A DNA stretch of 64,000 bases from Crossaster papposus (Eukaryota; Echinodermata; Asteroidea; Velatida; Solasteridae). Below are positions 7,119-51,717 of the stretch, one piece after another; position 1 is the stretch's first letter; each line of letters starts with the position of its first letter. The stretch covers positions 1-64,000 of the forward strand of contig JBAIAA010000028.1 of the NCBI GenBank assembly GCA_037893245.1, read 5' to 3'. The translations under genes and the position numbers were made by a program. The notes beneath the pieces are model-generated. The model saw only the letters and a program-made list of their open reading frames with translations. It ran no database searches and had not been told where the DNA came from.

Positions 7119-7695
7119 CAGAGTTGTATTCGAGTCCCCGCAAGTCCCTGCAAGCCCCCTGCAAGCCCCTGCAAGCCCCTGCAAGCCCCTGCAAGCCCCT
7201 GCAAGTCCATCACAAGTCCATCACAAGTCCATCACAAGTCCATCACAAGTCCATCACAAGTCCATCACAAGTCCATCACAAGTCCATCACAAGTCCATCA
7301 CAAGTCCATCACAAGTCCATCACAAGTCCATCACAAGTCCATCACAAGTCCATCACAAGTCCATCACAAGTCCATCACAAGTCCATCACAAGTCCATCAC
7401 AAGTCCATCACAAGTCCATCACAAGTCCATCACAAGTCCATCACAAGTCCATCACAAGTCCATCACAAGTCCATCACAAGTCCATCACAAGTCCATCACA
7501 AGTCCATCACAAGTCCATCACAAGTCCATCACAAGTTCATCACAAGTCCTTCAGTCTTATTAAGTCAAGTCACTAGCTGTTCAGATGAAACATTCCTTAG
7601 TCATTGTTCAACCAGTTACTTTCAACTGGCTTTTGTGAAAGGACTTTTGTGACTGGATTTGTGAAAGGACTTGCAGGGACTCGAATACAACTCTG
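7119..7695. mobile_element. hAT-like element with minisatellite arms
   Basis: Terminal inverted repeats CAGAGTTGTATTCGAGTCC (left) and its inverse GGACTCGAATACAACTCTG type (right) are flanked by CTATCAAT and CTATCACT, a 7/8 match to an 8-bp target duplication. CAGAG ends and 8-bp duplications are hAT features. The left arm expands into about five 10-bp GCAAGCCCCT units, then about 30 11-bp CAAGTCCATCA units (7206-7550). A short unique core with GTCATTGTTCAACCAG follows, then inverted AAGGACTTGCAGGGACT. Apparent long ORFs here are only the repeat read in frame. Confidence 0.8.
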
Positions 7696-7703
7696 CTATC
7701 ACT

Positions 7704-8080
7704 ATCTGATTGAATCAAGACTATTATTGGGAGAAGAAGCATTATTAGCTTAAATGTCAAGGAAAACCGCTTGTCAAGGGACTTGTATCAACACCAGACG
7801 AGTCAATCAATGAAGCAATTACGCGGCCTGGCCATGTATAGGCCCTACATCATGCTACGTGTAAATCTCTACGTGCATGTACATGTATAAATTTGCGTGT
7901 CTTTACAGGGTATAATTATATTTTTTTCGATTAGCAGTGTTGAGTTTATAGGAAAAAAGGGGTTTGTTCGCTCGTTTCCTAGAAAAGAAGAAGAAATGTT
8001 TGTGTGTGTATCGGTACGTGTCTGTATTAATAAGGTAAATGTATACATACAGTATGTACTGATTTATGTGTGTAATTTGT
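7704..8080. other. Non-coding stretch
   Basis: Nothing recognised between the minisatellite element and the GAGGGGTTCTGG repeat, apart from ACATGTAC-type microsatellite. Confidence 0.45.
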
Positions 8081-8490
8081 GAGGGGTTCTGGAAAAATGA
8101 GATGGTACTGGGCAGAGGTTGAAATGAGGGTTCTCCAGTATTAGAAAAGAGGATAAAATTATCCTTATAATACTGTTTGATGTGCTTCAAGTTATGACTG
8201 TTTAAAGTTCGCATTTATCAACATGTCGCAAAAGTAAAATGTTGAAAAAAAGGTCTTTGAAGTTTCAAGTTTTGTACATGTGATATACATGTATGAATAA
8301 ATTTTTTTTTTTTAAATTTGTATCACTTTTATTCCACTACTTTTATACTATTTCAGAACAAAATATAGTTAGTAGGCATACCAAAGATTACAAATCTAAA
8401 AATTTAAAAATAATCGCTTTTATTATATTTTGCAGTTTTTTCCACTGTGCCCTTTGGCTAATTTGCCCAGTTATGTCTCATTTTGGTAGA
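8081..8490 (+). repeat. Dispersed repeat, GAGGGGTTCTGG family, copy 1
   Basis: GTGAGGGGTTCTGGAAAAAT and ACTGGGCAGAGGTTGAAATG are shared with the copy at 30.44 kb, as are later GTATCACTTTTATTCCACTA and TAGTAGGCATACCAAAGATT segments. Non-coding in both copies. Confidence 0.7.
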
Positions 8491-8970
8491 ATACCACGCA
8501 TTTATTAATTTTAAACACTTCGGCATCTTTCTTCAAAACAATAAAATAATGAACCCCAAGTCCCTAGAGTGATTTACTAGGAACGAACCTTATCATTGCA
8601 GATCTTAACAACATACGCTACACAAACTGATATTTTTCTGTGTTTAAGAGGTATATATTGGCCCATTCATCAAGTTACATGTATGATACATCCTCTCATT
8701 TTGGCAAGGTGGGAAAGACGGGAATACTGTCAAAAATACTGTCGTATTGCTCAGGAAACTATTACTTTACGGTTTCTTTACTCTCTCCTTATTGCCTTAA
8801 CCCGTGTTAACGTATTACCCATCGTGGGCTATACCGGGTCGTACAAATTGTTATGTAAACGGGTTGAAAAAAAAGCCACCAGATTCACCTCAGTACATAG
8901 CTACACCACGCCACCACTTTTACTGTAAGCTCACTGTTTTTACTAGACCAGAATGCAGTGTGTATGTATA
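8491..8970. other. Non-coding stretch with an unassigned ORF
   Basis: A 110-codon plus-strand ORF (8596-8928) has no motif, no splice-site logic and no second copy. I treat it as chance. Confidence 0.4.
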
Positions 8971-9185
8971 GCTGTGTTCCAATTGGACTTTTTGGGTTGA
9001 CTTATTTTGACTTTTTGGTCGAATGACAAAATGAAATTCAATGGGAACGCGCGGTAGACTAAACGTCCCTGTCAATGTACCGCGGCGGTGATGTAAAACT
9101 ACCAGGCCAAAAGTGGTCACAGACAGTTTCTGCTCAGCCGCGGTATTTGGTTATCAGGGACGCTGAAAAGTCCAATGGGAACAGC
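8971..9185. mobile_element. Short MITE with GGCTGTTCCCATTGGACTTTT ends
   Basis: GCTGTGTTCCAATTGGACTT at the left and its inverse AAGTCCAATGGGAACAGCC at the right, 215 bp apart. A CCGCGG-containing interior. No coding content. Confidence 0.65.
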
Positions 9186-9540
9186 CTCGCCTTGTAGAAT
9201 TACTGCGACCTCGTGTAAAATGCTTTGTCTTGAGGTCAAATGTGACTGTGCACAGCGCCCACAATGTGTGACATTGTGATTATTTGTACAAGAACTATCT
9301 CTGGTACCTTATTTGACACAGTAATCACATAAATCGTTTTTAATTAATTAATAATTTTGTTTATATGTATTTCTTACACTTCCCCCGCCTAGTTTCATCT
9401 CCCCCACCAATTTCCAACCCACTCCTACCACTTGTCCCTACCACCCATCCACCACCATCTACATATACCCTACCCTACTTCCTACCCCAACCTCCCCAAC
9501 TTCCCCACCCCTACCATTTTCCCTATCCTACCTCACCCAT
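9186..9540. other. Pyrimidine-rich spacer
   Basis: From about 9370, an asymmetric C/T/A-rich stretch (CTTCCCCCGCCTAG, CCCTACCACCCATCC and similar) lacks G on this strand. It borders the complex array. No gene. Confidence 0.6.
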
Positions 9541-9646
9541 CTAATTAGCTGTTTCGGCATTTCAGCCGAAACAGCTTTTGTTTTCGTTAAAGTTTTTTTT
9601 TTAGCTGTTTCGGCAATTCAGCCGAAACAGCTTTTGTTTTCGTTAA

Positions 9647-9693
<47 letters not shown>

Positions 9694-9736
9694 CTGTTTC
9701 GGTTTTTCACCGAAACAGCTTTTGTTTTCGTTAAAG

Positions 9737-9767
<31 letters not shown>

Positions 9768-12700
9768 TTAGCTGTTTCGGTTTTTCACCGAAACAGCTTT
9801 TGTTTTCGTTAAAGTTTTTTTTTTTCTTTTTTTTTTTTTCCACTTTCAGTGTTTTTACCCATAGGATTTACACACGTTTTTTCTGCCAATACACTTTGGC
9901 ACTTTGGTAAATCCGATCGATTTTAGACTTGGCATACATTTAGACAACCACCCAAGGACGGTCCTAGAAGAAATTCGTCGCGATTACGTCACTCAAGGTC
10001 ACGTGACTTTGCGTTAAAGGTTAAATTTTCCCCATAGGTTTTGTACACGTTTTTCTTCACACTATTGACTTTGACACTTTGGTACATCCGACCGACTTGA
10101 AACTTAGCATACACTTAGAACATCACCCACAGATGGTCCTGGAAGAAATTCGGCACGATTGCGTCATTCAAGGTCACGTAACGTCATGTTAAAGTTTCAA
10201 TTTTTTCCCCCATAGGTTTTGTACACGTTTTTTTTTAGACTATGACTAAGACACTTTTGTAAATTTGATCGACTTGAGACTTGGCACACACAGAAGACCA
10301 CCGCACATATATTGAAAGTAATTTTAGACACTCGAAACAGCTCTGTGTTTGTCCACAAACACATGTCTAGTTTTTTTTTTTTCCTCTTTCAGACTTTTCC
10401 CCATAGGATTTGTACACGTTTTTTCTGGCATAGCACTTTGACACTTTGGTAAATCCGATCGACTTGAGACTTGGCATACATTTAGACAACCACCCAAGGA
10501 CGGTCCTAGAAGAAATTCGTCGTGATTACGTCACTCAAGGTCACGTGACTTCGCGTTAAAGGTGAAATTTTCCCCATAGGTTTTGTACACGGTTTTTTTC
10601 AGACTATTGAATTTGACACTTTGGTAAATCCGATCGACTTGAGACTTGGCATACACTTAGAACACCACCCACAAATGATATTGGAAGAAATTCGGCACGA
10701 TTGCGTCTTTCAAGGTCACGTGACGTCACGTTAAATGTGCAAATTATTACCCCATAGGTTTTGTACACGTTTTTCTTTAGACTATTAACTTTGACACTTT
10801 CGTAAATTTGATCGACTTCAGACTTAGCACACACCTCAACCACCATCCCCAGGGGGGCCAAGGGAAAAATTGTCATGATGACGTCATCGTGGGTCATGTG
10901 ACGTCACATTAAAGGTGCAGTTTTTAAGACCCTCTAACTCTGAAAGTACAAGTCCGGTTGGGGTCAAACTTGGTTTGCAAGTATTCGAGGATGTGTTATA
11001 GACGAAAATTAAGATGACGTAATTATGACATCATCGGGTGTCATGTGACGTCACATTAAAGGTTCAATTTTCTCCATAGGTTTTGTACACGTTTTTCTTC
11101 AAAATATTGAATTTGACACTTCTGTAAATTCGATCGACTTGAGACTTAGCACAGACCTCGACCACCATCCTTAGGAGGGCCAAGAAAAAAATAAACAAGA
11201 TGACGTCATCGCGGGTCATGTGACGTCACATTAAAGGTGTAGTTTTTAAGACCCTCTAACTCTGAAAGTACAAGTCCGGTTGGGGTCAAACTTGGTTTGC
11301 AAGTATTCGAGGATGTGTTATAGACGAAAATTAAGATGACGTCATGATGACATCATCGGGTGTCATGTTACATCACATTAAATGTTCAGTTTTTCCCATA
11401 GGATTTGTACACGTTTTTGTTCAACCAATATATCTTTGGCACTTTGGTAAATCCGATCGACTTTAGACTTGGCACACACTTAGACCACCACACACACATA
11501 ATGAAAGACATTTTAGACATCCGAAACAGCTCTGTGTTTGTCCACAAACATATGTATATTTTTTTTTTTTATTTGCCTTTTTTTCCCCATAGGATTTGTA
11601 CACGTTTGTTCAGACAATACACTTTGACACTTTGGGAAATCCGATCGACTTGAAACTTGGCATACACTTAGACAACCACCCAAGGACACATAATGAAAGA
11701 CATTTTAGACATCCGAAACAGCTCTGTGTTTGTCCACAAACATATGTATAGTTTTTTTTTTTATTTGCCTTTTTTTCCCCATAGGATTTGTACACGTTTG
11801 TTCAGACAATACACTTTGACACTTTGGGAAATCCGATCGACTTGAAACTTGGCATACACTTAGACAACCACCCAAGGACGGTCCTAGAAGAAATTCGTCG
11901 CGATTACGTCATTCAAGGTCACGTGACGTCATGTTAAAGGTAACATTTTCCCCATAGGTTTTGTACACGTTTTTCTTCAAACTGTTGACTTTGACACTTT
12001 AATGAATTCGATCGACTTGAGACTTGGCATACACTTAGAACACCAACCACAGATAGTCCTGGACGAAATTCGGCACGATTGCGTCATTCAAGGTCACGTG
12101 ACGTGACGTTAAAGGTGTAATTTATTTCCCCATAGGGTTTGTACACGTTTTTCTTCAGACCTTTGACTTTGACACTTTGGTAAATCCGACCGACTTGAAA
12201 CTTGGCATACACTTAGAACACCACCCCTAGATGTTTCTGAAAAAAATTCGGCACGATTGCGTCATTCAAGGTCACGTGACGTCACATTAAAGGTGCACAT
12301 TTTTCACCCATAGGTTTTGTACACGTTTATGTTTAGACTGTTGACTTTGACACTGTAGTAAATCCGATCGACTTGAGACTTGGCACACACTTAGACCACC
12401 ATCCACAGACGGCCCTAAAAGAAATTTGGCACGATTACGTCATTCAAGGTCACGGGGCGTCACGTTAAAGTTTCATTTTTCCCCATAGATTTTGTACACG
12501 TTTTTCTTTAGACTATTGCCGTTGACACTTTAGTAAATCTGATCGACTTGAGACTTGGCACACACAAAAGACCACCACACACATATTAAAAGTAATTTTA
12601 GACACTCGAAACAGCTCTGTGTTTGTCCACAAACACATGTCTAGTTTTTTTTTTTTTTTTTTTTTTTTTTTCAGACTTTTCTCCATAGGATTTGCACACG

Positions 12701-15700
12701 TTTGTTCAGACAATACACTTTGACACTTTAATAAATCCGATCGACTTGAGACTTGGCACACACTTAGACCACCACCCACAGACGGTCCTCGAAGAAATTC
12801 GTCACGATTACGTCATTCAAGGTCACGTGACCTCACGTTAAAGGTGAAAATTTTTCCATAGGTTTTGTACACGTTTTTCTTCAGACTATTGACTTTGGCA
12901 CTTCGGTAAATCTGACCGACTTGAAACCTGGCATATACTTAGAACACCACCCCCAGATGTTTCTGAAAGAAATTTGGCACGATTGCGTCATTCAAGGTCA
13001 CGTGACGTCACATTAAAGGTTCACATTTTTCTCCCATTGGTTTTGTACACGTTTTTCTTTAGACTATTGACTTTGACATTTTAGTAAATCCGATCGACTT
13101 GAGACTTGACACACACTTAGACCACCACCCACAGACGGCCCAAGAAGAAAATCGGCACAATTACGTCATTCAAGGTCACGGGGCGTCACTTTAAAGTTTC
13201 ATTTTTTTCCCATAGGTTTTGTACACGTTTTTCTTTAGACTATTGCCTTTGACACTTTAGTAAATCTGATCGACTTGAGACTTGGCACACACAAAAGACC
13301 ACCACACACATATTGAAAGTAATTTTAGACACTCGAAACAGCTCTGTGTTTGTCCACAAACACATGTCTAGTTTCTTTTTTTTTTTTTCTTTTTCAGACT
13401 TTTCTCCATAGGATTTGTACACGTTTGTTCAGACAGGTCACTTAGGTACTTTGGTAAATCCGATCGACTTGAGACTTGGCATACATTTAGACAACTCCAC
13501 AAGGACGGTCCTAGAAGAAATTCGTCGCGATTACGTCATTCAAGGTCACGTGACTTCGCGTTAAAGGTGAAATTTTCCCCATAGGTTTTGTACACGTTTT
13601 TCTTCAGACTATTGAATTTGACACTTTGGTATATCTGACCGACTTGAAACTTGCCATATACTCAGGACATCACCACCAGATGTTTCTGAAAGAAATTCAG
13701 AACGATTGCGTCATTCAAGGTCACGTGACGTCAAGTTAAATGTTTAATTTGTCCCCCATAGGTTTTGTACACGTTTTTCTTCAGACTATTGACTTTGACA
13801 CTTTGGTAAATCCGATCGACTTGAGACTTGGCATACACTTAGACCACCATCCCTAGGAGGGCCAAGAGAAAAATCATCACAATGACGTCATCGTGGGTCA
13901 TGTGACGTCACATTTAAGGTGTAGTTTTTAAGACCCTCTATCTCTGGAAGTACAAGTCCGATTGGGGACAAACTTGGTATGCAAGTATTCAAGGGTGTGT
14001 TATAGACACAAATTAAGATAACATCATGATGACGTCATCGTTGGTCATGTGACGTCTCATTAAAGGTTCAATTTTCCCCATTGGTTTTGTACACGTTTTT
14101 ATTCAGACTATTGAATTTGACACTTTGGTCAATCCGAGAGACTCGAGACTTAGTACACACCTCGACCACCATCCCCAGGAGGGCCAAGGGAAACATCGTC
14201 AGGATGACGTCATCGTTGGACATGTGACGTCATATTAAAGGTGTAGTTCTTAAAACCCTCTATCTCTGGAAGTACAGGTCCGATTTGGGTCATACTTGGT
14301 ATGCAAGTAATCGGGGATTGTTATAGACGAAAATTAAAATGAAGTAATTATGACGTCATCGTGGGTCACGGAACGTCATATTAAAGGGGTAGTTTTCCCC
14401 AAAGGATTTGTACACGTTTTTTTGTCAACCAATATATCTTTGGCACTTGGGTAAATCAGATTGACTTTAGGTTTGCGACACACTTAGACCACCACCCACT
14501 TATTACAAAACAAATTAGACATCCGAAACAGCTCTGTGTTTGTCCACAAACACATTTCTAGTTTTTTTTTTTTTCCTCTTTCAGACTTTTCCCCATAGGA
14601 TTTGTACACGTTTTTTCTGGCATAGCACTTTGACACTTTGGTAAATCCGATCGACTTGAGACTTGGCATACATTTAGACAACCACCCAAGGACGGTCCTA
14701 GAAGAAATTCGTCGCGATTCCGTCATTCAAGGTCACGTGACGTCATGTTAAAGGTACAATTTTCCCCATAGGTTTTGTACACGTTTTTCTTCAGACTATT
14801 GACTTTGACACTTTGGTATATCCGACCGACTTGAAACTTGGCATACACTTAGAACACCACCCACAGATGGCTCTTGAAGAAATTCGGTACGATTGCGTCA
14901 TTTAAGGTCACGTGACGTGACGTTAAAGGTGCAATTTTTTTCCCCATAGGGTTTGTACACGTTTTTCTTCAGACTATGGACTTTGACACATTCGTAAATC
15001 CGATCGACTTGAGACTTGGCATACACTTAGACCAGCATCCCTAGGAGGGCAAGGAGAAAAATCGTCACGATGACGTCATCTCGGGTCATGTGACGTCATA
15101 TTAAAGGTGCAGTGTTTAAGACCCTCTGTCTCCGTAGGTACAGGTGTGATTGGGGTCAAACTTGGTATGCATGTATTCCGGGATGTGTTATAGACGAAAA
15201 TTAAGGTGACATCATGATGACGTCATCGTGGGTCATGTGACGTCACATTAAAGGTTCAGTTTTTAAGACCTTATATCTCTGAAAGTACAGGCCCGATTGG
15301 TGTCAAACTTGGTATACAGGTATTCCGGGACGTGTTATAGACGAAAATAAAGGTGACGCCATGGTGACGTCATCAGGTGTCATGTGATGTTAAATTAAAG
15401 GTGTAGTTTCCCCCATAGGATTTGCACACGTTTTTTTCAACCAATATATATTTGGCACTTTGGTAAATCCGATCGACTTCAGACTTGGTACACACATAGA
15501 CGACCACCCACATAATTCAAAGTCATTTTAGACACGCGAAACAGCTCTGTGTTTGTCCACAAACACATTTCTAGTTTCTTTTTTTTTTTCTTTTTTTTCT
15601 TTAGACTTTTTCCCATAGGATTTGTACACGTTTTCTCTGGCATAGCACTTTGACACTTTAGTAAATCCGATCGACTTGAGACTTGGCATACATTTAGACA

Positions 15701-16450
15701 ACCACCCAAGGACGGTCCTAGAAGAAATTCGTCGCGATTACGTCATTCAAGGTCACGTGACGTCATGTTAAAGGTAACATTTTCCCCATAGGTTTTGTAC
15801 ACGTTTTTCTTCAGACTCTTGACTTTGACACTTTGGTATATCCGACCGACTTGAAACTTGGTATATACTTAGAACACCACCCAGAGATGGCTCTTGAAGA
15901 AATTCGGTACGATTGCGTCATTCAAGGTCACGTGACGTGACGTTAAAGGTGCAAATCTTTTCCCCATAGGGTTTGTACACGTTTTTCTTCAGACTATTGA
16001 CTTTGACACTTTCGTCAATTTGATCAACTTGAGACTTAGCATACATCTCGACCACCATCCCCAGGAGGGCCAAGGGAAAAATCGATATGATGACGTCATC
16101 GTGGGTCATGTGACGTCACATTAAAGGTGGAGTTTTTAGAAACCTCTATCTCCGGAAGTACAGGTCCGATTGGGGTCAAACTTGGTATGCAAGTATTCCA
16201 GGAAGTGTTATAGACGAAAATTAAGATGACGTCATGATGACATCACCGGGTGTCATGTTACGTCACATTAAAGGTTCAGTTTTTCCGATAGGATTTGTAC
16301 ACGTTTTTGTTCAACCAATATATCTTTGGCACTTGGGTAAATCCGATCGACTTTAGACTTGGCACACACTTAGACCACCACACATACATAATTTAAGACA
16401 TTTTAGACATCCGAAACAGCTCTGTGTTTGTCCACAAACACATGTCTAGT
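9541..16450. repeat. 6.9-kb complex tandem array with Helitron-like block ends
   Basis: About 31 occurrences of CCCATAGGTTTTGTACACG-type anchors, spaced mostly 174-181 bp. The basic unit runs CCCATAGG, GACTTTGACACTTTGGTAAA, TCCGATCGACTTGAGACTTG, AAGGTCACGTGACGTCA, TTAAAGGT. A second, roughly 145-bp unit (AAGACCCTCTAACTCTGAAA and GGGGTCAAACTTGGTATGC) is interspersed at 10.9, 11.25, 13.9, 14.25, 15.1, 15.25 and 16.1 kb. Eight blocks end in GAAACAGCTCTGTGTTTGTC then CACAAACACATGTCTAG, at about 10370, 11558, 11751, 12644, 13371, 14561, 15574 and 16449, each but the last followed by a T-run. The left edge has four copies of a palindrome AGCTGTTTCGG...CCGAAACAGCT with poly-T. No protein-coding content is credible. 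Confidence 0.88.
11510..11893 (+). repeat. Recent 193-bp block duplication inside the array
   Basis: The segment from AATGAAAGACATTTTAGACA through the hairpin, T-run and next half unit occurs twice with almost no differences. This is a sign of recent unequal exchange in the array. Confidence 0.8.
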
Positions 16451-16905: not shown

Positions 16906-17417
16906 TGACTTGTGACTGGACTTGTGACTGGACTTGTGACTGGACTTGTGACTGGACTTGTGACTGGACTTGTGACTGGACTTGTGACTGGACTTGTGAC
17001 TGGACTTGTGACTGGACTTGTGACTGGACTTGTGACTGGACTTGTGACTGGACTTGTGACTGGACTTGTGACTGGACTTGTGACTGGACTTGTGACTGGA
17101 CTTGTGACTGGACTTGTGACTGGACTTGTGACTGGACTTGTGACTGGACTTGTGACTGGACTTGTGACTGGACCTGTGACTGGACTTGTGACTGGACCTG
17201 TGACTGGACTTGTGACTGGACTTGCAGGGACTTGCAGGGACTTGCAGGGACTTGCAGGGACTTGCAGGGACTTGCAGGGACTTGCAGGGACTTGCAGGGA
17301 CTTGCAGGGACTTGCAGGGACTTGCAGGGACTTGCAGGGACTTGCAGGGACTTGCAGGGACTTGCAGGGACTTGCAGGGACTTGCAGGGACTTGCAGGGA
17401 CTTGCAGGACAACTCTG
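16906..17417. mobile_element. Minisatellite-hAT element, left end lost
   Basis: About 26 units of 12-bp ACTTGTGACTGG (to 17220), then about 19 units of 10-bp CTTGCAGGGA, ending CTTGCAGGACAACTCTG, the right terminus of the 7.1-kb element with a small deletion. No core and no left CAGAG end were found. The units are almost perfectly homogeneous, suggesting recent expansion or conversion. It lies in front of PLCB exon 1. Confidence 0.72.
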
Positions 17418-17654: not shown

Positions 17655-17822
17655 GTAAGAACGTACACCAAGTTTACATTTTCGTTTTGTTTAACACTGA
17701 GGCCCGAAGAGGTGAAAACCTTTTTGTTGAAATGAAAAGCATACAAAGTAAGCAATAGGTCCTATTATCACTTTTTGTAATGTGTGAAAAGGAGACCTAC
17801 TGGCTTTTGTTTACAGCGCTTG

Positions 17823-18308
17823 AAGCGGTGGTCACATCTTACGGTCATGAACGTAGTTGAACGTAGTTGAACGTAGTTGAACGTAGTTCATTTGACCGTA
17901 GTAGACCGTAGTTGACCGTACTTCAACCGTAGTGCCATGGTTACTACGGTCAACTACGGTCCACACTACGGTCAAGTAGGGTCAACTACGGTCCACACTA
18001 CGATCAACTAGAATTAACTAGGGTATAACTACGTATATACTACGTATTATACTAGGCTCACAGTACGGTATATGCATTCAAGGTGACCAGAGAAATATTT
18101 TCAACATGTTGAAAACTTTTGGGCTAACTACGGCAAAATCATGGCTTTCCTCAAGGTCTAAACTCTTGTACGTTCACAACTACGGTCCACTACGTTTAAC
18201 TACTTTTAACTACGACTACTAGGGTCTACTACGGTCCACTACAGTCACACCATACTATGTTCAACTACGTTCAACTACGTTCATGACCGTAAGATGTGAC
18301 CACCGCTT
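17823..18308. mobile_element. Foldback-like element with 10-bp GAACGTAGTT units
   Basis: AAGCGGTGGTCACATCTTAC at the left is inverted at the right (GTAAGATGTGACCACCGCTT). Both arms continue into GAACGTAGTT repeats (three in tandem at left, inverted at right), then degenerate ACTACGGTC units. Just outside the right end a 20-bp TCTGACCACCGCTTTAAATC duplicate follows. It lies 168 bp after PLCB exon 1. Confidence 0.75.
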
Positions 18309-18455
18309 TAAATCTGACCACCGCTTTAAATCCTTTCGCAAAGGCGCTTTATATCCTCGATGAACCAGTTTTCGAGGTTGTCAAGATTTGAATATGTCAA
18401 GCAAGAGATAAACTCACAGTCAAAAGCAAACGTTTAACAGTTCAGTTTCTTTCAT

Positions 18456-21190: not shown

Positions 21191-22011
21191 TCCAACCTAA
21201 ACAGCTCCAACAGTTCGTTCCCCTCCCTACCACCCCATCACCACCCACCCACTATTGCCAACAAAAATCTATTGTCTCCAAAGACCAGGGGAAATAAAGA
21301 TCATTTAAAAAGTGTCACTTTTGTCATAATGTATACGGTTTCCTGTCAATTTTCCAGTCCCACGCCACCAGCAGAAAGGAAGGAAATTACTGGTCTTAAT
21401 TCAGCTGGCCACATCAGCTTTGTGGCCACATTATGCTGTTGTGACCATTTCCCGGTCTATTTGTGGTACATATAGTTGCCAATAATGCACGTCCACAATA
21501 TGATCAATATTCTTGTGTCCTAGATTCATTGAAAGCCTGACGCTAATGTAATAACTGTGTGATCAGATAGGGAAAAGCTCCAACGGTAATAAAATTGGCC
21601 TCGATACAGTGGAAACACACAATTTAAAATGTTAAAGCTTTGCATCAAATTCTAGATACAGAGTGTGGATGAGTCCCAAAATAAACTATAATATATTTTC
21701 TTACCAAAGATAAAATGTACAAAAGTCGCAAGTCGCAAATAAATAGAAGCATAATGCAAAATGTGTATTTGTCCAAGGACAAAGAGCCAGTTATTAAAAA
21801 ATAGAAGGTACAAATAAACAATGGAAGGTTATAATTGAGGAAAGAACAAAACTCCAAGGGGAATTTATCATTGGATGGTGTCAACCCAGACTTTAACTTT
21901 TCAATTAAGTCATTGTCTTATCTGAAGGATTCTAGGCATCGATCTGCAGATTTGTAATGCACTGATAGGCTTATTCCTAGCTTGGTACTAAACTTGGAAA
22001 TGTGAACACAA
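21191..22011. other. Intronic stretch, no gene recognised
   Basis: Unique-looking intron DNA. Short ORFs only. Confidence 0.45.
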
Positions 22012-22789
22012 CCAAACATATACAATGTGAACAACCAAACATCTACAATGTGAACAACCAAACATCTACAATGTGAACACAAACATCTATAATGTGAACA
22101 TAACCAAACATCTACAATGTGAACACAAACATCTACAATGTGAACATGACCAAACATCTATAATGTGAACATATAACCAAACATCTACAATGTGAACATA
22201 ACCAAACATCTACAATGTGAACATAACCAAACATCTACAATGTGAACATAACCAAACATCTACAATGTGAACATAACCAAACATCTACAATGTGAACATA
22301 ACCAAACATCTACAATGTGAACATAACCAAACATCTACAATGTGAACATAACCAAACATCTACAATGTGAACATAACCAAACATCTACAATGTGAACATA
22401 ACCAAACATCTACAATGTGAACATAACCAAACATCTACAATGTGAACATAACCAAACATCTACAATGTGAACATAACCAAACATCTACAATGTGAACATA
22501 ACCAAACATCTACAATGTGAACATAACCAAACATCTACAATGTGAACATAACCAAACATCTACAATGTGAACATAACCAAACATCTACAATGTGAACATA
22601 ACCAAACATCTACAATGTGAACATAACCAAACATCTACAATGTGAACATAACCAAACATCTACAATGTGAACATAACCAAACATCTACAATGTGAACATA
22701 ACCAAACATCTACAATGTGAACATAACCAAACATCTACAATGTGAACATAACCAAACATCTACAATGTGAACATAACCAAACATCTACT
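22012..22789. repeat. 25-bp satellite, about 31 copies
   Basis: The unit is AACCAAACATCTACAATGTG plus AACAT. The first few units are irregular (some lack the AACC), and the rest are perfect from about 22190 to 22785. There are no spacers, so it is not CRISPR-like. It lies in the intron between exons 1 and 2, 280 bp before the CR1/L2-like fragment. Confidence 0.92.
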
Positions 22790-26345: not shown

Positions 26346-26347
26346 TA

Positions 26348-41443: not shown

Positions 41444-41827
41444 AGGTAGGATACACCATTTGCAGATATCGAAAACATTTACTACCGAATTATAAAGAAA
41501 TATCTTACTCATTTGAAAGTAAATAATGATTCTAGGCATCCAGCAAAATGATTGCGCTAGATATCCTGTAATTATTCTGAAAAATAGAATTTTATAAATA
41601 AAAATTCGCGATCGCCGGACGGCGATTGCGAAAAAAACAAAGGTAACATAAGAATAACTGCTCGACGCCGGTTGAAAACAAACGCTGTTTTTCGTTCTTT
41701 TCTCGGCATCCATGATTGTAAAACTTCGGAAAGGTCAGTTAAACGATATTTACTATTAAATACAACCTCCTAAATCTACCCATTCATGATAATTCAAGCA
41801 ATTACCATTGGTGTATACTACCTTTAA
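41440..41827 (+). mobile_element. KM1 MITE inserted in the piggyBac coding sequence (reference copy)
   Basis: A 380-bp body flanked by TTAA on both sides (41440-41443 and 41824-41827). It begins AGGTAGGATACACCATTTGC and ends ATTGGTGTATACTACCT, giving about 16-bp terminal inverted repeats. Because the surrounding reading frame is restored by removing body plus one TTAA, the duplication and boundaries are certain. Internal landmarks are CCGAATTATTAAG, GGCATCCAGCAAAATGATTG, an imperfect GCGATCGCCG palindrome and ATCCATGATTGTAAAAC. There is no coding capacity. TTAA duplication with TTAAAGG ends fits the Kolobok/T2 type. TTAA is also used by piggyBac, so assignment remains an inference. Confidence 0.92.
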
Positions 41828-44072
41828 ACCAGGAGAATCCTGAAGAAACAAGACAGGATCCTGAGGAGAAGAGGAGACAAAAGAAGAAGAAAAAGAGAGA
41901 GCACTCGAGTCAGGAGACGGCTGAGGAAATAAGCCAGAATCCTGAGAAAAAGAGGAGACAAAAAAGGAAGAAAATAAGAGAGAAGTCGGGACGGGAGACT
42001 GAAGAAACAAGCCAGGATCCTAAGGAGAAGAGGAGACAAAAGAAGAAATCAAAGGAGAAAAAGGGAGATGTGCCAGATCAACAGGGCACTTCCAGTTCTC
42101 TGCCAGTACATGTTCAAAACCGCTACCGGGTAACACAGACAAAAAAGCAGCAGGCTTTTGAGCAGTGGGCCAAGTACAGGGCTGTGGCAGAATCAAGCTC
42201 TGATGATGATACTGATGGTGATGATGATGGCGACCACTTGTCACACATGTTGTATGTCCTGGGCCAACCTCCTGAAGATAGTGACCTGGAGGAAGAGGAT
42301 GATGATGATAGCGACCTGGAGGAAGAGGAGGATAACATTGATGTCCAGAAACCAGCAGACGTCTGCCCAGCAAAGAGGCGAAAAGGAAAAACCTTTGCCA
42401 CTCCTGCTCCAGATAATGATCCTGAGGAAGCAGCGCCCAATGCTGTGCTGGACGAAGATATCAACCAGTGGTCAATGCAGCTGAGGCGGGTTTTCACCCA
42501 TCCATTTAGTGGCCCTACACCACTTGGACCAACTTTTGTAAAGCAAGCTGGGATGAGACCCCTTTATTACTTTTTCCAGTTTTTTCCTTTGGCCCTGTTT
42601 GCCTACATTGCTCAGATGACCAACATCAAGTTGCGGTTTGCAAACATCACTTCCCTGACTTCCACAGCAGAGATTCGTGCCTGGTTTGGCATTCGGTTGG
42701 TCATGGGGTTGAGTCATCTCACAAACACAAGGGAATACTGGTCCAACCGACAAGGTTTCCGCAATGAGCTGATTGTGAAGACGATGACAAGGCAAAGGTT
42801 TGAAGTCATATCTACCTATCTGGCCTGCTCAGACCCACAAGCTGACCCTCGGAATATGCCATCGAATACGACCAAGGAAAAGCAGGACAAATACAACTTC
42901 ATCCGGACCCACCCAAAGTTTTATTTCAGGAGGCTTTGGGATACAGTCATTTACTTATGCCAATCAAAGTATAACTGTGGAAGAAACCTGACAATTGATG
43001 AGGTGATAATCCCTTACCGTGGCTTTCGGGCTGGGTGCCAGAAGGTGTTTATGCCTTGTAAACCCATAAGATCTGGGTTCAAAGTGTATGCGATGGCAGA
43101 AAGTGTGACTGGATATATCTGCAACTTCAATATCCACACTCCGAGCAAAACCCCCAAGAAAATGGGGAACATTGCCATGGAAGTTGCATCATCACACCTG
43201 GACTGCTTCCATCACATATTTACAGACAAGCTGTACACATCCAGGGAACTTGCCAGCCATCTCTTGCAACATGGAACATATCTCACCGGAGCAATCAAGA
43301 CCAACTCCATACGCCTTCCACTTGACCTATCCAACAACCCCAAGAAGAACCTGATGAACCTGGAAGCTGTGCAGCAGATCAGAAAAACACGACGAGGAAC
43401 CTTCTATGTACGACAGAGTGGACAGCTGACATATACCCTGTGGAACGACTCTTCCCTGTTGTCCGTTCTATCATCTGCTCACAGTGGGTTCAGAGACCAT
43501 ACCACCGACTTTGTGACGAGGCGTTACACCATGGACAGTGCCAAAGTCCGGGAGGCCCGCCAAGTCCCAGCACCACCTGCAGTAATCGACTACTGCAAGA
43601 ATATGGGCGGTGTTGATCGAGGTGATCAGCTGCGGAGCTACACCATCAACCGAAAGTCACAACATGGGTGGAAACAGATTGTGTGCTTTCTTGTGGACAT
43701 CGCCCGGGTAAATGCCTGGATTTGCTATCAGCATCATGCACAGCCCCATCCAGAAGAGTCATCTGATGATGAGTCACCTGACGATGAGGGAAGCAATCTC
43801 AACCATACCCACTTCACCATGGATGTAGCTGAACAACTGATTGAAGGCTTTGCCCATGGTTCGAAGAACATACATCAGCCACCGACACAACCAGTGCCAC
43901 TCCACAACTTTGGTGGTCTGCATAGACTGGTACACATGGGAGCCAAATTTCCAAAGGGGTGTAAGCGGTGCGCCAGAGACAAGAAAAAGACCCCATCTGG
44001 CATTCCAGTCAAGACTCACTTTGGCTGTGCTGCCTGCGGTGTCCATCTCTGCACTGTCTACTGCTTCCCAAG
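41827..44072 (+). CDS. piggyBac transposase, PGBD4-like, main exon (N-terminus cut by a MITE)
   Basis: A cut-and-paste transposase that excises at TTAA. The frame is open from the KM1 insertion at 41827, with 668 codons following the in-frame Val codon at 42070. Counting from that codon, the DDE_Tnp_1_7 catalytic aspartates are D310 (LTIDEVI), D386 (FTDKLYTS) and D516/D519 (GGVDRGDQ), so the active site is intact. The N-terminal part is Lys/Arg/Glu-rich with three degenerate repeats (QDPEEKRRQ type), then an acidic Asp/Glu stretch. The C-terminus is a Cys-rich zinc-binding region (CKRC, CAAC, HLCTVYCF). The original start is probably ATG 41371: 24 codons run in frame to the TTAA at 41440, and deleting the 384-bp insertion restores one open frame. 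After the insertion the first in-frame ATG is at 42247. Confidence 0.9.
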
Positions 44073-44213
44073 GTAACAATAAAATTGTCAAACATGTTTT
44101 TCCTATAATTACTTAAAACGCTTGTCTTTCCCTTTCTTGCTACAAAACAGTTTTGTGTCTTTTCTTTTTCCTTTCTTGCTACAAAACAGTTTTGTGTTTT
44201 TGTTGTCCACCAG

Positions 44214-44837: not shown

Positions 44838-45360
44838 GTTCTAAATAAAAAAAAAGTGCCTCCAAAATAATGTTGTTTTATTGCACTTCTATTAATACAA
44901 CAACATACCTATGCCTGGTCCATTCCACAGACATTGCATTTCCCCCTATATAAATCGCACGCCTCAAAAAAAAAACCTTTCTCATTTATATTTTTAAATC
45001 TCAGCATGTTTTAGGGCTTGGCTTCTCTCTGTGGAAACCGAAGTTTGTCATCCGATCCTAATCTGCCGATGCTGGCATTGTGAGGTGTAACATTTCCTTG
45101 GCCCCTCACCGTATTGTTCTCTTCAATAGGGTGGAAACAAATCTGATTAGATCGTGGACAAAGACAAGATCTCTGGCATGTAACTCTATCTTTTTCTGAC
45201 AGTACACGTGTATGCCTACGACTCCCATTTTTTTGTTTCCAATTGTGAATGTCAAGCTTTTTTTCCCGTGTTGCAGACTTATGGCATTAGTTCATTAAAA
45301 TGACCTAGTTTATTACCCCTAACACCCTACCCCATTTTTCTTACCGTACACATTGGCCAT

Positions 45361-46130: not shown

Positions 46131-47719
46131 CACCCATAACCTGAATCCTTTAAAATCCTGCAGTGATTTTACCATTGAGCAATAAAGCAGCCAAACATGG
46201 AGCAAATTAATTACCTAATGGAGGTCTGCACAAACTTTTCCTACGGTATCTTTGACACATAATATACACCTTGTTCTATTGAGAATGTGCATAGAGCATG
46301 AGCAGTGTGAAAGTACAAAGTACAAATAACCTCAATCCATCCTATTTGGATAAACACCCAAGTAAATCCTGCAAAATCATCCATCATTAGTTTAGGCCTT
46401 ATAACCTGGGTCCTGCATTATCCTTAAGTGGCAAAAACCCTAAACGCCCTCAATCCTGCAAATTCCTCTGATGCATCAACTTAAGTGCCCTCAATCCTGC
46501 AATTTGCAAAGAGGCTTTTTGAGGATTTGGGATGGTTAGGGTTAGATGGAATATACATGTACATCATTTGCTTTTGTACATCATTTGCTTTTGGTTTAGG
46601 GGGTTAGTATTGTATAGCTAATACCGGTATTATTACACTGACTGTTTGTATTTATAGATGCTGAAAAAACTAAGAAAAACAATCTTGTTCTTGTAGTCTC
46701 TTTCCCTGACCCTACTTAAGATGAAACAGAGCAATTTATAAACATCAGGGGTATTGTACGGTCAAAAAACCAGTCTGGCTGGCTTTTAACCGATCATATC
46801 GATTGCTAAATAAAATACTAACTATGGTAAATTGGGGTAGTAATGACGTATTTTAAAATAAAAGTTAGTTTCCAACGCTGTGAGATTAATATAAAAATAC
46901 TATTTTTCTTGAAAATGACATCACACCAGGTGCCATAATTTTACATGATGCTTCTGACTGTCATTAACCAACAGTCTAAAGCTCTTTTTATAATAATTTG
47001 GTAGTTTTGTTCCCATTCATCGAGAGCTCTGCCGCTGCAAGTGAAATGTAATCGTTTGTAGTACGAGGTTTTGCACGGCAATGTATACATGTATAAATTA
47101 AGGTCGCTGGAAAGCCAGCTGGATTGTTGTGCATACATTTGCTGCACGCGCGACAACATGTTAACGATGCGGCAAGAAAAACAAAATACAAATAAAATCA
47201 GAATTGTAGAGGCGATTATACTTGTCCCAAGGATGTTTTTGTTACTTGTCCCAAGGATGTTTTTGCAAAAAGGGCACGACGATCAAGGTAAATAACTTGC
47301 CGTTGAAGACAGCTATATTTAGTTGGGCACCTCGGCAATGACGTCGTCGTGGCCGTCATTCAATTCAAAGCCCTGTAACCCATGGTATTTCAACTTCCTG
47401 TGGGGTCCCTTGTTGGTAGACGATGTGGAAAGAATTAGTTTTATCGTGGTGGGAGGAAAACCCCAGAATGATATTCAAGGGGAAACCCACGGAATCAGAC
47501 AGGGACTGAAAACCCATTGACATTGATAAATTGATGGTGCAGATTAAACATAAAAAAAAATTGCAATGGAATATTATCTCAATACTTTTTCATGAAAAAG
47601 CCTTTATCAGACATTTATCACACATTGTCAGAATGCTAAAGTTCTTGTAACGTTTGACATTTGCACACTTGCTGCCCTCGCGGCGTCGCTTGACATTTTA
47701 AACACTGATTTGCCCTCAG
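46131..47719. other. Intronic stretch before PLCB exon 5
   Basis: AT-rich intron DNA with a KM1b-like fragment and a tandem CTTGTCCCAAGGATGTTTTTG pair (47221-47262). ORF 47323-47520 has no motif. Confidence 0.45.
46557..46780 (-). mobile_element. KM1b MITE fragment, inverted
   Basis: A duplicated TACATCATTTGCTTTTG is followed by GGGGGTTAGTATTGTATAG and ATAGATGCTGAAAAAAC, similar to the inverted KM1b interior and the fragment at 28.45 kb. Confidence 0.5.
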
Positions 47720-47807
47720 CATCAAAAAGATGTTTGCATCGTCACGGGAGGACAAGAAGAAAGTAGAAAATGCTCTCCAGGCATCGGGAGTACTTCTTGA
47801 TAAAAAG
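47720..47807 (+). CDS. PLCB: PLCB exon (EF hand)
   Basis: An 88-nt exon between TGCCCTCAG and GTAAGA. Its first base completes the Ser codon, giving S-IKKMFASSRED and then a lysine-rich helix ending LLDKK. The SIxxxFAS start resembles PLCB4-type proteins. The preceding 8.4-kb intron contains the whole piggyBac transposon. Confidence 0.9.
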
Positions 47808-47907
47808 GTAAGACAAACACAGACCAAGTACTTGTTTTTTAGAAGCACAATTTGTTTGGCTAATTGTTTAGCTGCGCCCTGAGATTCGGCCCTCATTTAT
47901 GCTCAGT

Positions 47908-48060
47908 ATAACCCCTTGATGCTGGTATACCCATCGGTATACGCATGCAGTCTTTGTCCAACAGCTGCACTGCACAATGGACTAGAATGTGCAGCTGTGC
48001 TACGGCCTGTGTGACATTACCAACAGCATTCTGGATAGATTAGCATGCCGCGGAATAGCA
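47908..48060 (-). repeat. Dispersed repeat, CCAGAATGCTGTGGACAGCTG family, inverted copy
   Basis: ACCCCTTGATGCTGGTATAC, AGTCTTTGTCCAACAGCTGC and CAACAGCATTCTGGATAGAT are the inverse of the 33.75-kb repeat. It lies 100 bp after PLCB exon 5. Confidence 0.6.
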
Positions 48061-49002
48061 ATTGGGCTTTAACAAAATTGGAAGAAATGTCGATATTTGC
48101 AGTCGGTGATTTTTTTCTCCGCCGTTGTGAATATTTGTATCTCTGATTGAGATCCTAAGGGACTAAGCATAAGGTCACTTGCCGTCAGAGTGCAGACATG
48201 ACAGATACTATTTTTAGATGTTTTACTATCGTACAGAACAGAGATATTATCAAATTAATAATCAAATCATAATCAAATCATAACTGTCACGTATGTAAAT
48301 AACACAATTAAATTTGGGTGCAGGAGTACTGCAACTGTACTTCCAAGAGCTTAAATGCAGACGGAGCACAAGTGTGGGTAGAGAATGGACATGGGTGATC
48401 ACCGAAAATTACTCCTCAGTGAAAACCTGCAAAAGTCCTACTTTTATCCCGAGTTTGTCCTCCAAATTCCTACTTCTGTCGTACTTTAAAACAATTATTT
48501 ATCTTACTTTCTCCTACTTTTTCATCTTGGTCTGCTTGAAAGCCTGACCAAGTCAGTTTTGTGGTGTATTTGACAGTTGTGGGATTATCTGTTAACTCAT
48601 AGAGAAAGGTTCCTTTCTCTATGGTTTAATTAACCCTTAACCTGCCAGACGCAGCGCAGTGCATCAGGTAAATAAAGTCTGGTGCACTTTGATGAATTTA
48701 GCTGTCAGCAACAGTCCACAGTCTAAGACTCTGAGAGCTAATTCCCATTGAACAATGCCAACATTGGGTGACTGCAAACTCTGTGTTGCAGACTCTGAAG
48801 CAGTTTGAGTTGACCTTGATAATTCTGACCTGATGGATCTCGCTGCACTAGGCAGGGTTGTCATGATGCTGATTGCTGCGTGTGGCAGGGTGTCTAGCCA
48901 AAATACCCTGCAGGTAATAAAGTTAATATTCTCACGCCAATATGAATAAAACATGCATGTTTGCTTTCCCTTTTTATTGCTTTCGTCTTCAATTGTCTTC
49001 AG
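48061..49002. other. Intronic stretch before PLCB exon 6
   Basis: No repeat boundary or gene recognised. The ORF on the minus strand (48664-49098) is largely the antisense of exon 6 plus intron. Confidence 0.5.
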
Positions 49003-49103
49003 GATGACTCGATCACTCCCAGCAACTTCCGCATCGAAGATTTCTTCACCTTCTACACCCGACTCATCAGCCAGAAAGAGATTGACAAAGTCTTTCAAGG
49101 ACT
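49003..49103 (+). CDS. PLCB: PLCB exon (EF hand)
   Basis: A 101-nt exon between GTCTTCAG and GTAAGA, starting at a codon boundary and ending with two bases of a Leu codon. It encodes DDSITPSNFRIEDFFTFYTR and then LISQKEIDKVFQG. This is the ND-I-P-F-E-FY pattern followed by the helix that ends in the family's EIDxIF segment. Confidence 0.92.
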
Positions 49104-49296
49104 GTAAGATGATGCAATTTTAACAGTCCCTCTTCTAACCTCTGTTTCTTCCACCGATTTGCTTCATTTTGCATGCACAGTGATTAATTGAAATGTACCC
49201 ACCCATTCTTTGTATCAGTATCCCATGCTGCATAGACACTGAACAGAGCAGTGTGATTTTTCAAGTCCCTATAGCAATAAGGAGTTTACTTTTATA

Positions 49297-49745
49297 ATAT
49301 GTGACCCGCTCCATTGTAATCAGGAATAAGTTGCTGAGGCCGTTTTACACAATCGGCCGTTGAAGTGAACGCATTGGTAAAAATCGTGACCAAGTCGATT
49401 TTCTGAACATTGTATTTTTAGGAAGTGCAGTTATCATAGATTATTGTCATTAATGTCTTGTATGTAAAAACGATCAATGCAGATGAAAATGAAGAGGATT
49501 TGTGTGCGCTGTCGTATGATTTGGGTGAATTTTGTTTATTTCAAAGCTGTTTTTCTCGGAATGTGGATTCGGCAAATAAATATATACCTGTCATCTTCAT
49601 CAGACCATAACTCGTTAACCTAAGAAGATACACACTTGTGATGGGTATCATTAAAAAGCTTATGAAATTCCCTTTCGCACCATGTGCATATCTCAAAAAG
49701 TCATTTTGAGACTTATTCCTGATTTTGATGGAGTGAGTCACATGT
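49297..49745. mobile_element. GTGACC-family MITE, ATAT/ATGT flanks
   Basis: GTGACCCGCTCCATTGTAAT ... ATTTTGATGGAGTGAGTCAC, flanked by ATAT and ATGT. The interior is an inverted relative of the copy at 52.47 kb (both have AAGCTTATGAAATTCCC or its inverse). Confidence 0.82.
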
Positions 49746-49879
49746 ACATCGTTCAATGAACAAGCACAAATCCGTCGAGGAGCCATGTCGTTGTGTATGG
49801 TCTACTGTAGTTCAAATGCACACAAATACTGCAGAGAATTATATATGTAGCATGTAGTTGGCATGTAGTTACCATGTGG

Positions 49880-50692
49880 TAATTCTCTTTAGTGAGATTG
49901 TGTGGTTCTGAATAGAACCAAAGGGAACTCAATGTTTTGGACAGTATGCTCTGCCCGTCATCAGGAGCGATTCTAACGGTGGAGTAGGGTTATATGGAGC
50001 CTGGAAGCAATGAAGCGTGATGTGGTGGAGTTCCTGGGAGAGATGTTTTTTTGTCGCAGACGTTGTATGCCCTGCAGACGAGAGCCTGGTTGATGGAAGT
50101 CGTGATCTTGGGGTGATGGAAGGAACTGCTGTGGAGGTATCTGTCAGTGTGAGTTGGTTTGCGGTAGACGCTGCAAGCGAGACTCCAATCCTGCTTTCTA
50201 GACACCTCAACGCCAAGAAATGAGATGTTCAACCATCCCTTTTTTTGTTCCATGGTGAACTGGATGCTGCTGTGAAGCCTGTTGAGGTGTTTCAAGAAGA
50301 CACGGTTCCCCAAGAATACATCGGTTTCAACATCAGCGACATCTGGTACCCCATCATCACCTCCCAGTCCGATGGTTCCCCTATACCATTGCCAACCTTC
50401 CCCTTCCTTCCCACTGAAACACCTCAGTGATCATCCAGCATCTTCCACGTCCTGCCTGAGTACTCCTGAAGAGTTGCATCTTATGCACGATTCATTGCTC
50501 AGTGATCATCTAGCATACCCTCCATGCATAAAAAGTTGCATCCTTCATACGCCTAATCGTTTCCATAACCCCGCTTCACTGTTGGAATCCCTCAGTCTCC
50601 TGATGACGGGCAGAGCATATACAGTCTGAAACATTGAGTTCCCTCCGGTTCTTTTCAGAACCACTCATCTCACTAAAGAGAATCAACACAAA
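49880..50692 (-). mobile_element. Penelope-like element fragment with inverted flanks
   Basis: Left arm AATTCTCTTTAGTGAGAT, GTGGTTCTGAATAGAACC and CTCTGCCCGTCATCAGGAG is repeated inverted on the right (CTCCTGATGACGGGCAGAGC, GGTTCTTTTCAGAACCAC, ATCTCACTAAAGAGAAT). Between them is a minus-strand reverse transcriptase fragment. Inverted terminal repeats around a truncated copy are common in Penelope-like elements. Confidence 0.75.
49990..50313 (-). pseudogene. Penelope-like reverse transcriptase, C-terminal fragment
   Basis: An open frame containing FLKHLNRLHSSIQFTMEQKK, LNISFLGVEVSRKQD, and VYRKPTHTDRYLHSSSFHHP, then INQALVCRAYNVC. The F-LGV-V-R...VYRKPTHTDRYLH...HHP block is characteristic of the segment just after the RT core of Penelope-like elements, before the GIY-YIG endonuclease. 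Catalytic RT motifs and the endonuclease are missing. Confidence 0.85.
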
Positions 50693-50704
50693 TACCGCAA
50701 ACTA

Positions 50705-51116
50705 ATATGTGACCCGCTCCTACGAAACCTGACATAAGTCGCAAAGGCTATTTCGAGATACAGCTCGTCAAAGTTGAAATGGGGTGAAAAATATAGTGGA
50801 CACCGATTTTTTTTTTTCGTAATTTTTTTATTCTTTATTATGTATACTTTAACTCTCAGTTAGGTTACACAAAGTCAACTTTTTTGATGAGAAAGTACAA
50901 ATATCATGCATTTATTAAGGCAAACTGTGTCCTAAAAGTGGTAATTTATCTCCCAAATACATCGAAATAAAATCCTCATAAAATTGGAAGTATGTATGGT
51001 ATAAAGGTGGTTTTGGTACCAAATAAAAGCTGAAGATGTGTACTTAATGGAAATAACAATATCTCACTTTTCAAAATAACTACTTATGTCTGGTTTTGTG
51101 GGAGCAGGTCACATAT
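50705..51116. mobile_element. GTGACC-family MITE, ATAT duplication
   Basis: ATAT|GTGACCCGCTCCTACGAAAC ... GGTTTTGTGGGAGCAGGTCAC|ATAT. About 404 bp, non-coding. It abuts the Penelope-like fragment. Confidence 0.87.
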
Positions 51117-51310
51117 TTCCTTTTACAGAGCATTGTTACAGTGATCAGTGCTCACTTATTTTTTTCATTATCTTTTTTATTGTCTGAGAAGTATTATGTA
51201 GTTGGTAACAGGTACTCAAATCCATAAGCTGGAACCAGGTCCTGACATCCACAGTTTGGAATACTCAGATACCTGGTTTTGATGCATAGCCCTATAAAAA
51301 GAGGCTATAG

Positions 51311-51717
51311 CAAAGTTGTATTCGAGTCCTTGCACAAGTCCTTGCGCAAGACCTTGCGCAAGACCTTGCGCAAGACCTTGCACAAGACCTTGCACAAGAC
51401 CTTGCACAAGTCATTGCACAAGTCATTGCACAAGTCATTGCACAAGTCATTGCACAAGTCATTGCACAAGTCATTGCACAAGTCATTGCACAAGTCATTG
51501 CACAAGTCATTGCACAAGTCATTGCACAAGTCATTGCACAAGTCATTGCACAAGTCCTTTCATAAAGCCAGTCACAAGTAGCTGGTTTTTGAACAATGAC
51601 AAAGGAATGCCTTTGTCAAAGCTCATTTGAATAGCTTGTGATTAGAACTGGAGGACTTGTGATGGACTGGTAGGGACTTGTGATGGACTTGCAGGGACTA
51701 GCTTGACTACATCCCTG
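51311..51717. mobile_element. hAT-like element with minisatellite arm, perfect 8-bp duplication
   Basis: A perfect 8-bp duplication GGCTATAG (51303-51310 and 51718-51725) brackets ends CAAAGTTGTATTCGAGTCC and, read inward from the right, CAGGGATGTAGTCAAGCTAG. The left arm is a 12-bp array, first CAAGACCTTGCG then CAAGTCATTGCA (51400-51556). The core GTAGCTGGTTTTTGAACAAT is the inverse of the core of the 7.1-kb element. The right arm has two diverged TGTGATGGACT units. Confidence 0.87.

Follow-up and report, generated by a model that had tools for sequence, protein, structure and literature searches.

Short subterminal repeats of an apparently non-autonomous hAT-type element as likely seeds of minisatellites in Crossaster papposus

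How does a minisatellite begin, and can a transposon supply its first units? The question is raised by a 64,000-nucleotide stretch of the Crossaster papposus genome (assembly GCA_037893245.1, contig JBAIAA010000028.1, positions 1 to 64,000 of the forward strand), the whole of which was analysed and is called the window below. At about 7, 17 and 51 kilobases (kb) it contains elements with transposon-like ends and arms filled by arrays of 10-, 11- or 12-base-pair (bp) units. An earlier note on this DNA took them for a hAT-like family with shared ends, in which each copy had turned its arm into a minisatellite of its own. We consider it likely that the family is a hAT-type miniature inverted-repeat transposable element (MITE), that short repeats just inside its ends act as seeds, and that after insertion these are amplified into minisatellites copy by copy.

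Re-reading the sequence and running Tandem Repeats Finder gave the same coordinates, ends and repeat units for the three elements as the earlier note. The 7-kb copy (7119-7695, 577 bp) has perfect 19-bp inverted ends CAGAGTTGTATTCGAGTCC and is flanked by CTATCAAT and CTATCACT, a target duplication that agrees at 7 of 8 positions. The 51-kb copy (51311-51717) lies between two identical copies of GGCTATAG (8 of 8); its right end is of a second type (CAGGGATGTAGTCAAG...), unlike its left end. Both duplications are as first described. The 17-kb element (16906-17417) had been credited with both ends as well, but it is a one-ended fragment, comprising the right half only, with the last 8 end bases kept; no convincing left end was found over the upstream 315 bp (the closest candidates need 6-7 edits per 19 bases), and inspection by eye revealed no target duplication. 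Likewise, that each copy has a unit of its own is only partly right: the 10-bp units of the 7-kb (CAAGCCCCTG) and 17-kb (CAAGTCCCTG) copies are one unit and differ by a single C/T substitution. The 51-kb copy has, in its unexpanded arm and on the opposite strand, one exact occurrence of the 11-bp unit that the 7-kb copy has expanded, and all units in the window consist of a CAAGTC(C)-type core with a linker of 3, 4 or 5 bases. Judged by their sequences, the three elements belong to one family. Their parts are as follows.

7111-7118, no strand: left target duplication CTATCAAT of the 7-kb copy, 7 of 8 bases identical with 7696-7703
7119-7137, plus strand: left end CAGAGTTGTATTCGAGTCC of the 7-kb copy (end type T3; 892 exact genome matches)
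7136-7205, plus strand: 10-bp array CAAGCCCCTG in the left arm of the 7-kb copy (Tandem Repeats Finder, 6.9 units)
7202-7553, plus strand: 11-bp array CAAGTCCATCA in the left arm of the 7-kb copy (Tandem Repeats Finder, 32 units, 99% matches; 30 of the 32 units identical)
7554-7629, plus strand: core of the 7-kb copy, with GTCATTGTTCAACCAG at about 7600, placed in the core tree with 53 other copies
7630-7676, plus strand: right arm of the 7-kb copy, unexpanded
7677-7695, minus strand: right end of the 7-kb copy, a perfect inverse of the left end
7696-7703, no strand: right target duplication CTATCACT of the 7-kb copy
16907-17224, minus strand: 12-bp array GACTTGTGACTG (minus-strand unit CAAGTCCAGTCA) in the right arm of the one-ended 17-kb copy (Tandem Repeats Finder, 26.5 units, 98%)
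17218-17408, minus strand: 10-bp array of the 17-kb copy (CAAGTCCCTG on the minus strand; Tandem Repeats Finder, 19.1 units, 100%)
17410-17417, minus strand: right end remnant CAACTCTG of the 17-kb copy
51303-51310, no strand: left target duplication GGCTATAG of the 51-kb copy
51311-51329, plus strand: end CAAAGTTGTATTCGAGTCC of the 51-kb copy (end type T1; 32 genome matches), which the core makes the family's right end
51325-51556, plus strand: 12-bp array CAAGTCATTGCA of the 51-kb copy, with CAAGACCTTGC(A/G) variants near its outer edge (Tandem Repeats Finder, 19.3 units)
51557-51634, minus strand: core of the 51-kb copy (TTGAACAATGAC), in inverse orientation to that of the 7-kb copy
51635-51699, minus strand: unexpanded left arm of the 51-kb copy, an imperfect 11-bp repeat (3.6 units, 79%) with one exact CAAGTCCATCA on the minus strand
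51695-51717, minus strand: end of the second type (CAGGGATGTAGTCAAG..., T2-like, edit distance 3; T2 has 400 exact genome matches) of the 51-kb copy
51718-51725, no strand: right target duplication GGCTATAG of the 51-kb copy

The genome searched comprises 1.02 gigabases in 1,841 contigs. The 19-base ends CAGAGTTGTATTCGAGTCC, CAGGGATGTAGTCAAGTCC and CAAAGTTGTATTCGAGTCC match it exactly at 892, 400 and 32 places, and the reversed patterns of the three match it nowhere; with 892 and 32 exact matches against none, the shared ends are therefore not due to chance. (Pieces of 15-16 bases of the end were also compared with viral contigs, 21 stretches, and prokaryote genomes, 54 stretches, where the matches were taken as chance.) Copies were sampled from all 32 places of CAAAGTTGTATTCGAGTCC and from the first 54 of the 892 places of CAGAGTTGTATTCGAGTCC, two of these in the window; because exact ends and first-listed places were used, the sample leans towards less diverged copies and the first contigs. 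From 82 loci and the window, 95 exact ends were obtained, which merge into 79 distinct copies. In this step L003, L092 and L148 were joined as duplicates to L002, L086 and L147, and L102 and L105, a single insertion represented on two contigs, were both kept in the count. L002 and L003 (G000:C7, at 475 kb and 483 kb) lie 8.4 kb apart, carry a 58-unit array and are identical over 1,989 bp, probably through a recent local duplication that included the array.

Among the 79 copies, 44 are two-ended with an 8-bp duplication, 11 are two-ended without one, and 24 are called one-ended, meaning that no second end passed the criteria; this last class is too large, since L101, L104 and L109 plainly have a mutated second end. 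The earlier note had named copies lacking the duplication as a point that would tell against it, and these 11 of 55 two-ended copies stand beside the 44 that have one. The 44 duplications are perfect in 22 cases, with one mismatch in 15 and two in 7. Shuffled flanks give on average 0.26 perfect and 0.26 one-mismatch duplications, so that 37 copies with at most one mismatch compare with about 0.5 expected. Across these 37, identity is 0.89-0.97 at each of the eight positions and 0.08-0.32 just outside them; the second end is nearest to the CAGGG type in 21 and to the CA(A/G)AG type in 16. The 55 two-ended copies range from 182 to 1,810 bp. More than half of them (29) are under 250 bp, at 182-247 bp, and with two ends, a duplication and hundreds of exact ends in the genome the family has the hallmarks of a MITE: apparently one high-copy, non-autonomous hAT-type element of about 200 bp, a size at which its copies would have no coding capacity.

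What the arrays may have grown from can be read in the short copies. The unexpanded set consists of the 29 copies of at most 260 bp among 35 short ones, the six longer ones being left out of spacing and seed counts. Allowing one mismatch, 3-5 CAAGTCC-type motifs are present in 27 of the 29 left arms and 23 of the 29 right arms. Gaps between motifs are mostly 10 bp (44) or 11 bp (30) in left arms, with 15 of 20-23 bp, and 12 bp (64) or 10 bp (26) in right arms, with nine of other lengths; a spacing of 10-12 bp is about one helical turn. Single units are largely arm-specific too: CAAGTCCATCA is present in 19 of 29 left arms and no right arm, CAAGTCCAGTCA in 19 of 29 right arms and no left arm, and CAAGTCCTTTCA in 17 right arms and no left arm, while CAAGTCCCTG occurs in both (13 left, 3 right).

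A copy was called expanded if Tandem Repeats Finder reported an array of at least 8 units, and 54 copies with a recognised core were scored (the tree and array counts exclude L098, which has two ends but lacks a recognised core). By this measure 19 of the 54 are expanded, with a motif amplified to about 8-122 units. The right arm is expanded in 17 and the left in 5, three of these having arrays in both. Left arrays have periods of 10, 11 or 21 bp (21 being 11 + 10), and right arrays of 12 bp (16 arrays), 24 bp (1) or 13 bp (1); all are within the size range of minisatellite units (about 10-100 bp). The array period is that of its own arm in all but one of 23 arrays, so the period follows the motif spacing of each arm. 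The consensus unit is CAAGTCCAGTCA in 8 of 21 arrays, and CAAGTCCTTTCA, CAAGTCCTTGCA, CAAGTCATTGCA, CAAGTCCATCA, CAAGTCCCTG, CAAGTGCCCG and others in the rest. Minisatellites do arise inside the element, as the earlier note had proposed, but it is mainly the subterminal motifs that expand and not the termini from which it had derived them; in L109 a 16-bp unit includes the inner margin of the terminal repeat.

These observations suggest a sequence of events. Each arm would carry some three to five short subterminal repeats built on CAAGTCC, which are probably transposase-binding sites, because the BED domain of the Hermes transposase binds AAG(T/C); a resemblance to AAG(T/C) is found in the consensus units of all 21 arrays, with periods of 10-13 bp, all of them from one family. 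After insertion, the imperfect tandem of 10-, 11- or 12-bp motifs would act as a ready seed, its short tandem spacing presumably inviting slippage or unequal exchange. Replication slippage or unequal exchange would then amplify and homogenise one motif, copy by copy, up to about 120 units. We infer that such processes, rather than the transposase, drive the growth.

It is improbable, in our view, that the transposase itself does so, by nicking or excising at one end and leaving a gap whose repair slips among the repeats. Expansion is indeed frequent (19 of 54) and adjoins transposase-type ends, but this frequency is no independent evidence because the copies were chosen by their ends. Truncated copies also have long uniform arrays (the 17-kb copy and L127, whose array has at least 98 units), although the arrays may already have existed when the end was lost; the data hold no sign of cleavage, and ordinary slippage suffices. 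We give an equally small chance to the extended idea that abortive cutting or binding at subterminal sites leads to slipping gap repair, in which case the arrays would record transposase attack and might act as decoys that soak up transposase.

If slippage or unequal exchange acts on each copy after insertion, when did the arrays grow? The cores differ by 6.4% (median) from the majority of their subfamily, and at that divergence two equally old units would be expected to share exact stretches of about 8 bp on average. The longest exact runs in the arrays reach 34 units, and among the 54 copies 15 have runs of at least 8 exact units, all of them belonging to the 19 expanded copies. It follows that most arrays are either of later date than the insertions or kept uniform by turnover. 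L102 and L105, with the identical duplication ACAGAATC, differ by 51 substitutions in 3,701 aligned flank bases and one in the element, and their arrays differ by 40 bp, read as two 20-bp units; they may be alleles or duplicates. On a weakly resolved tree of the 54 cores, expanded versus short requires 17 changes, against means of 15.9 and 16.0 in two sets of shuffles, of which 420 and 409 of 500 were as low as 17; end type requires 3 changes on the same tree. Age was considered as a cause of expansion and rejected: median core divergence is 0.061 in expanded and 0.065 in short copies (p=0.70), and duplication mismatches are alike (p=0.66). The core tree, the exact units and the 40-bp difference thus support the copy-specific expansion, and give signs of the continuing length change, that had been suggested from the window. 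Growth probably takes place after insertion, in each copy separately, which for most copies we infer from these patterns together.

Several points weigh against this account. The core tree has only 3 starred branches among 51 inner ones, and these alone force 2 changes; it therefore shows no clustering without proving a separate origin for every expansion, and some expansions may be shared between copies. One unit, CAAGTCCAGTCA, is the consensus of 8 of the 21 arrays; the arrays of L107 and L134 consist of nothing else. Four of the 19 expanded copies (L116, L118, L120 and L124) have no 8-unit exact run at the periods tested. The flanks of L102 and L105 contain six other indels of 1-23 bp, which makes the 40-bp array difference weak evidence of special instability. 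The amplified units CAAGTGCCCG, CAAGCCCCTG, CAAGTCATTGCA and others are in the arms of none of the 29 unexpanded copies; to explain them, one has to suppose that the seed had mutated or that a sweep followed. GAGTCC replaces the expected motif in 21 of 58 units of L143 and in the commonest unit of L115 (11 of 25), as would be expected if the arrays are no longer under selection. Finally, a transposase with the ends of this family was sought in 8 of at least 110 hAT-transposase loci (about 3 kb each) and not found.

The arrays could instead have been inherited, if expanded arms offer more binding sites, make better substrates and so favour transposition. The same idea has been put forward for Galileo and Tetris; PMC4079207 proposes such an advantage for the TIR-220 repeats of Tetris. 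The units here resemble hAT binding sites, 16 of the 44 complete duplication-flanked copies are expanded, and 8 of 21 arrays have a consensus unit in common. That unit, however, also occurs singly where the right arm is unexpanded (19 of 29 arms), and array length and unit mixture vary from copy to copy. Given that the core tree, weakly resolved as it is, shows no grouping of the expanded copies, and that these match the short ones in core divergence and duplication mismatches, inheritance through transposition was rejected as the main route, and we regard a transposition advantage as unlikely.

The assignment to hAT can be questioned separately. Duplications in this superfamily have the consensus nTnnnnAn, and its terminal inverted repeats are short and begin with CA(G/A). 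Mutator, P and Merlin are other superfamilies with 8-bp duplications. In this family, 8-bp duplications with at most two mismatches flank 44 of 79 copies, and the ends begin with CAGAG, CAAAG or CAGGG (892, 32 and 400 exact 19-base matches). T at position 2 and A at position 7 are each seen in 38 of 74 strand-symmetrised sites from the 37 copies, either one in 28 of 37 duplications and both in 10, so that the rule is followed as a bias and not strictly. The hAT character read from the window is thereby upheld. Although 8-bp duplications are not unique to hAT, and Tetris, with duplications of 8-10 bp, was assigned to Mutator by its authors (PMC4079207, as far as the accessible text goes), the clean 8-bp length, the T2/A7 bias and the CA(G/A)(A/G)G ends all fit hAT. 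The genome also has at least 110 matches to the hAT-dimerisation domain PF05699, hAT being the only superfamily searched for. Another superfamily is thus an unlikely home for the element.

There remains the relation of arrays to element. A pattern for the start of an array of the 11-bp unit matched 163 places in the genome (control, 0), and the boundary from left-arm array to core, with up to 3 mismatches, gave 190 matches for one core type and 281 for the other, sets that overlap (control, 0 each). One hundred listed starts of the 163 correspond to 94 loci. In at least 48 of these a core boundary follows on the same strand, no more than 1.5 kb downstream, compared with 0, 1, 0 and 0 of 94 for shifted positions. 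The earlier note had held that minisatellites mostly lacking the element would count against it; in at least 53 of the 94 listed loci an exact end or a core boundary lies at the expected position. The other 41 are unplaced, which weighs against our reading, and may hold diverged copies or free arrays. That the minisatellites are independent simple repeats in or near which the element inserted, as those 41 loci might suggest, is very improbable, given arrays between the target duplications of 16 complete copies, arm-specific units and periods, and at least 48 of 94 listed loci running into the family core on the right strand.

Drosophila Foldback and Galileo have tandem repeats in their terminal regions, with lengths that vary from copy to copy. 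The earlier note had likened the window copies to Foldback, and terminal tandem repeats of copy-dependent length are a real likeness (also cited in the portion of PMC4079207 at hand). Long inverted arms, however, are absent from the two window copies with both ends: the longest inverted pair joining the ends is 34 nucleotides (91%) in the 577-bp copy at 7 kb, no end-to-end pair of at least 14 nucleotides is found at 51 kb, and the arms differ in period. A Foldback architecture was therefore rejected for these two copies. A second repeat-armed element in the window, at 17820-18311, has unrelated ends and looks more foldback-like, with 58-nucleotide inverted arms (97%) starting TTGAAGCGGTGGTCACATCTTACGGTCATGAACGTAGT... 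and 10-bp units TGAACGTAGT/TGACCGTAGT in both orientations.

The window holds other repeats and elements. A long degenerate repeat of about 175 bp (TTTTCCCCATAGG...), partly with a 353-bp period, extends over 9853-16129, and a 25-bp array of AATGTGAACATAACCAAACATCTAC (32 units, 96% matches) over 21999-22788. An open frame of 777 residues (stop to stop) at 41743-44076 contains a DDE_Tnp_1_7 transposase domain (PF13843, E 4e-60) and is presumably of piggyBac type. Among the sampled loci, L100 (around 1991-3100) has a family end and, some 40 bp further in, hAT-like sequence of another kind, in which GACTTGACTTG is frequent and which ends in an inverted CAGAGTTGTAACCAAGTC; this copy possibly contains a nested related family.

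Among known systems, Tetris/DAIBAM of Drosophila virilis is the nearest precedent found. The consulted part of PMC4079207 describes a foldback-like element with units of about 220 bp, three complete copies, two alleles with three and four repeats, and growth to satellite arrays. Our family is similar in being non-autonomous, with tandem repeats inside its terminal arms, length variants and repeats growing towards satellite DNA; it differs from what is described there in its 10-12-bp units, the 44 complete copies examined, many of them unexpanded, and the lack of long inverted arms in two window copies. It also shows many copy-specific expansions of 10-12-bp units. For Hermes, a hAT element, the section of PMC10368747 available describes a transposase that binds AAG(T/C) repeats inside the ends through BED domains, in an arrangement that differs between the ends. 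Short motifs repeated inside the ends, the AAG(T/C) core and the asymmetry of the arms are common to both; the Hermes motifs are, in that section, not in tandem minisatellites, and binding here is predicted from likeness of motif. Herves is grouped with Hermes as a hAT transposon with subterminal repeats (from a partial view of PMC3143072). Xmix and Xstir, satellites derived from MITEs (PMC9659126, in the part to hand), are likewise tandem repeats yielded by a non-autonomous element; in our family, unlike that description, several different units have expanded, depending on the copy, and the period depends on the arm. Among the papers listed in literature searches, no title or opening line of an abstract gave an account of this family or of arrays of hAT subterminal repeats.

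The birth of a minisatellite is often judged from single loci whose initial state is lost. In this case a single genome probably contains hundreds of insertions with almost the same starting seed, which range from unexpanded to about 120 units and have boundaries marked by target duplications. Such parallel cases would allow the threshold length, the choice of seed unit, the arm bias and the growth rate to be measured. They also suggest a functional reason why seeds exist at all: they may be the clusters of binding sites that a hAT transposase probably needs.

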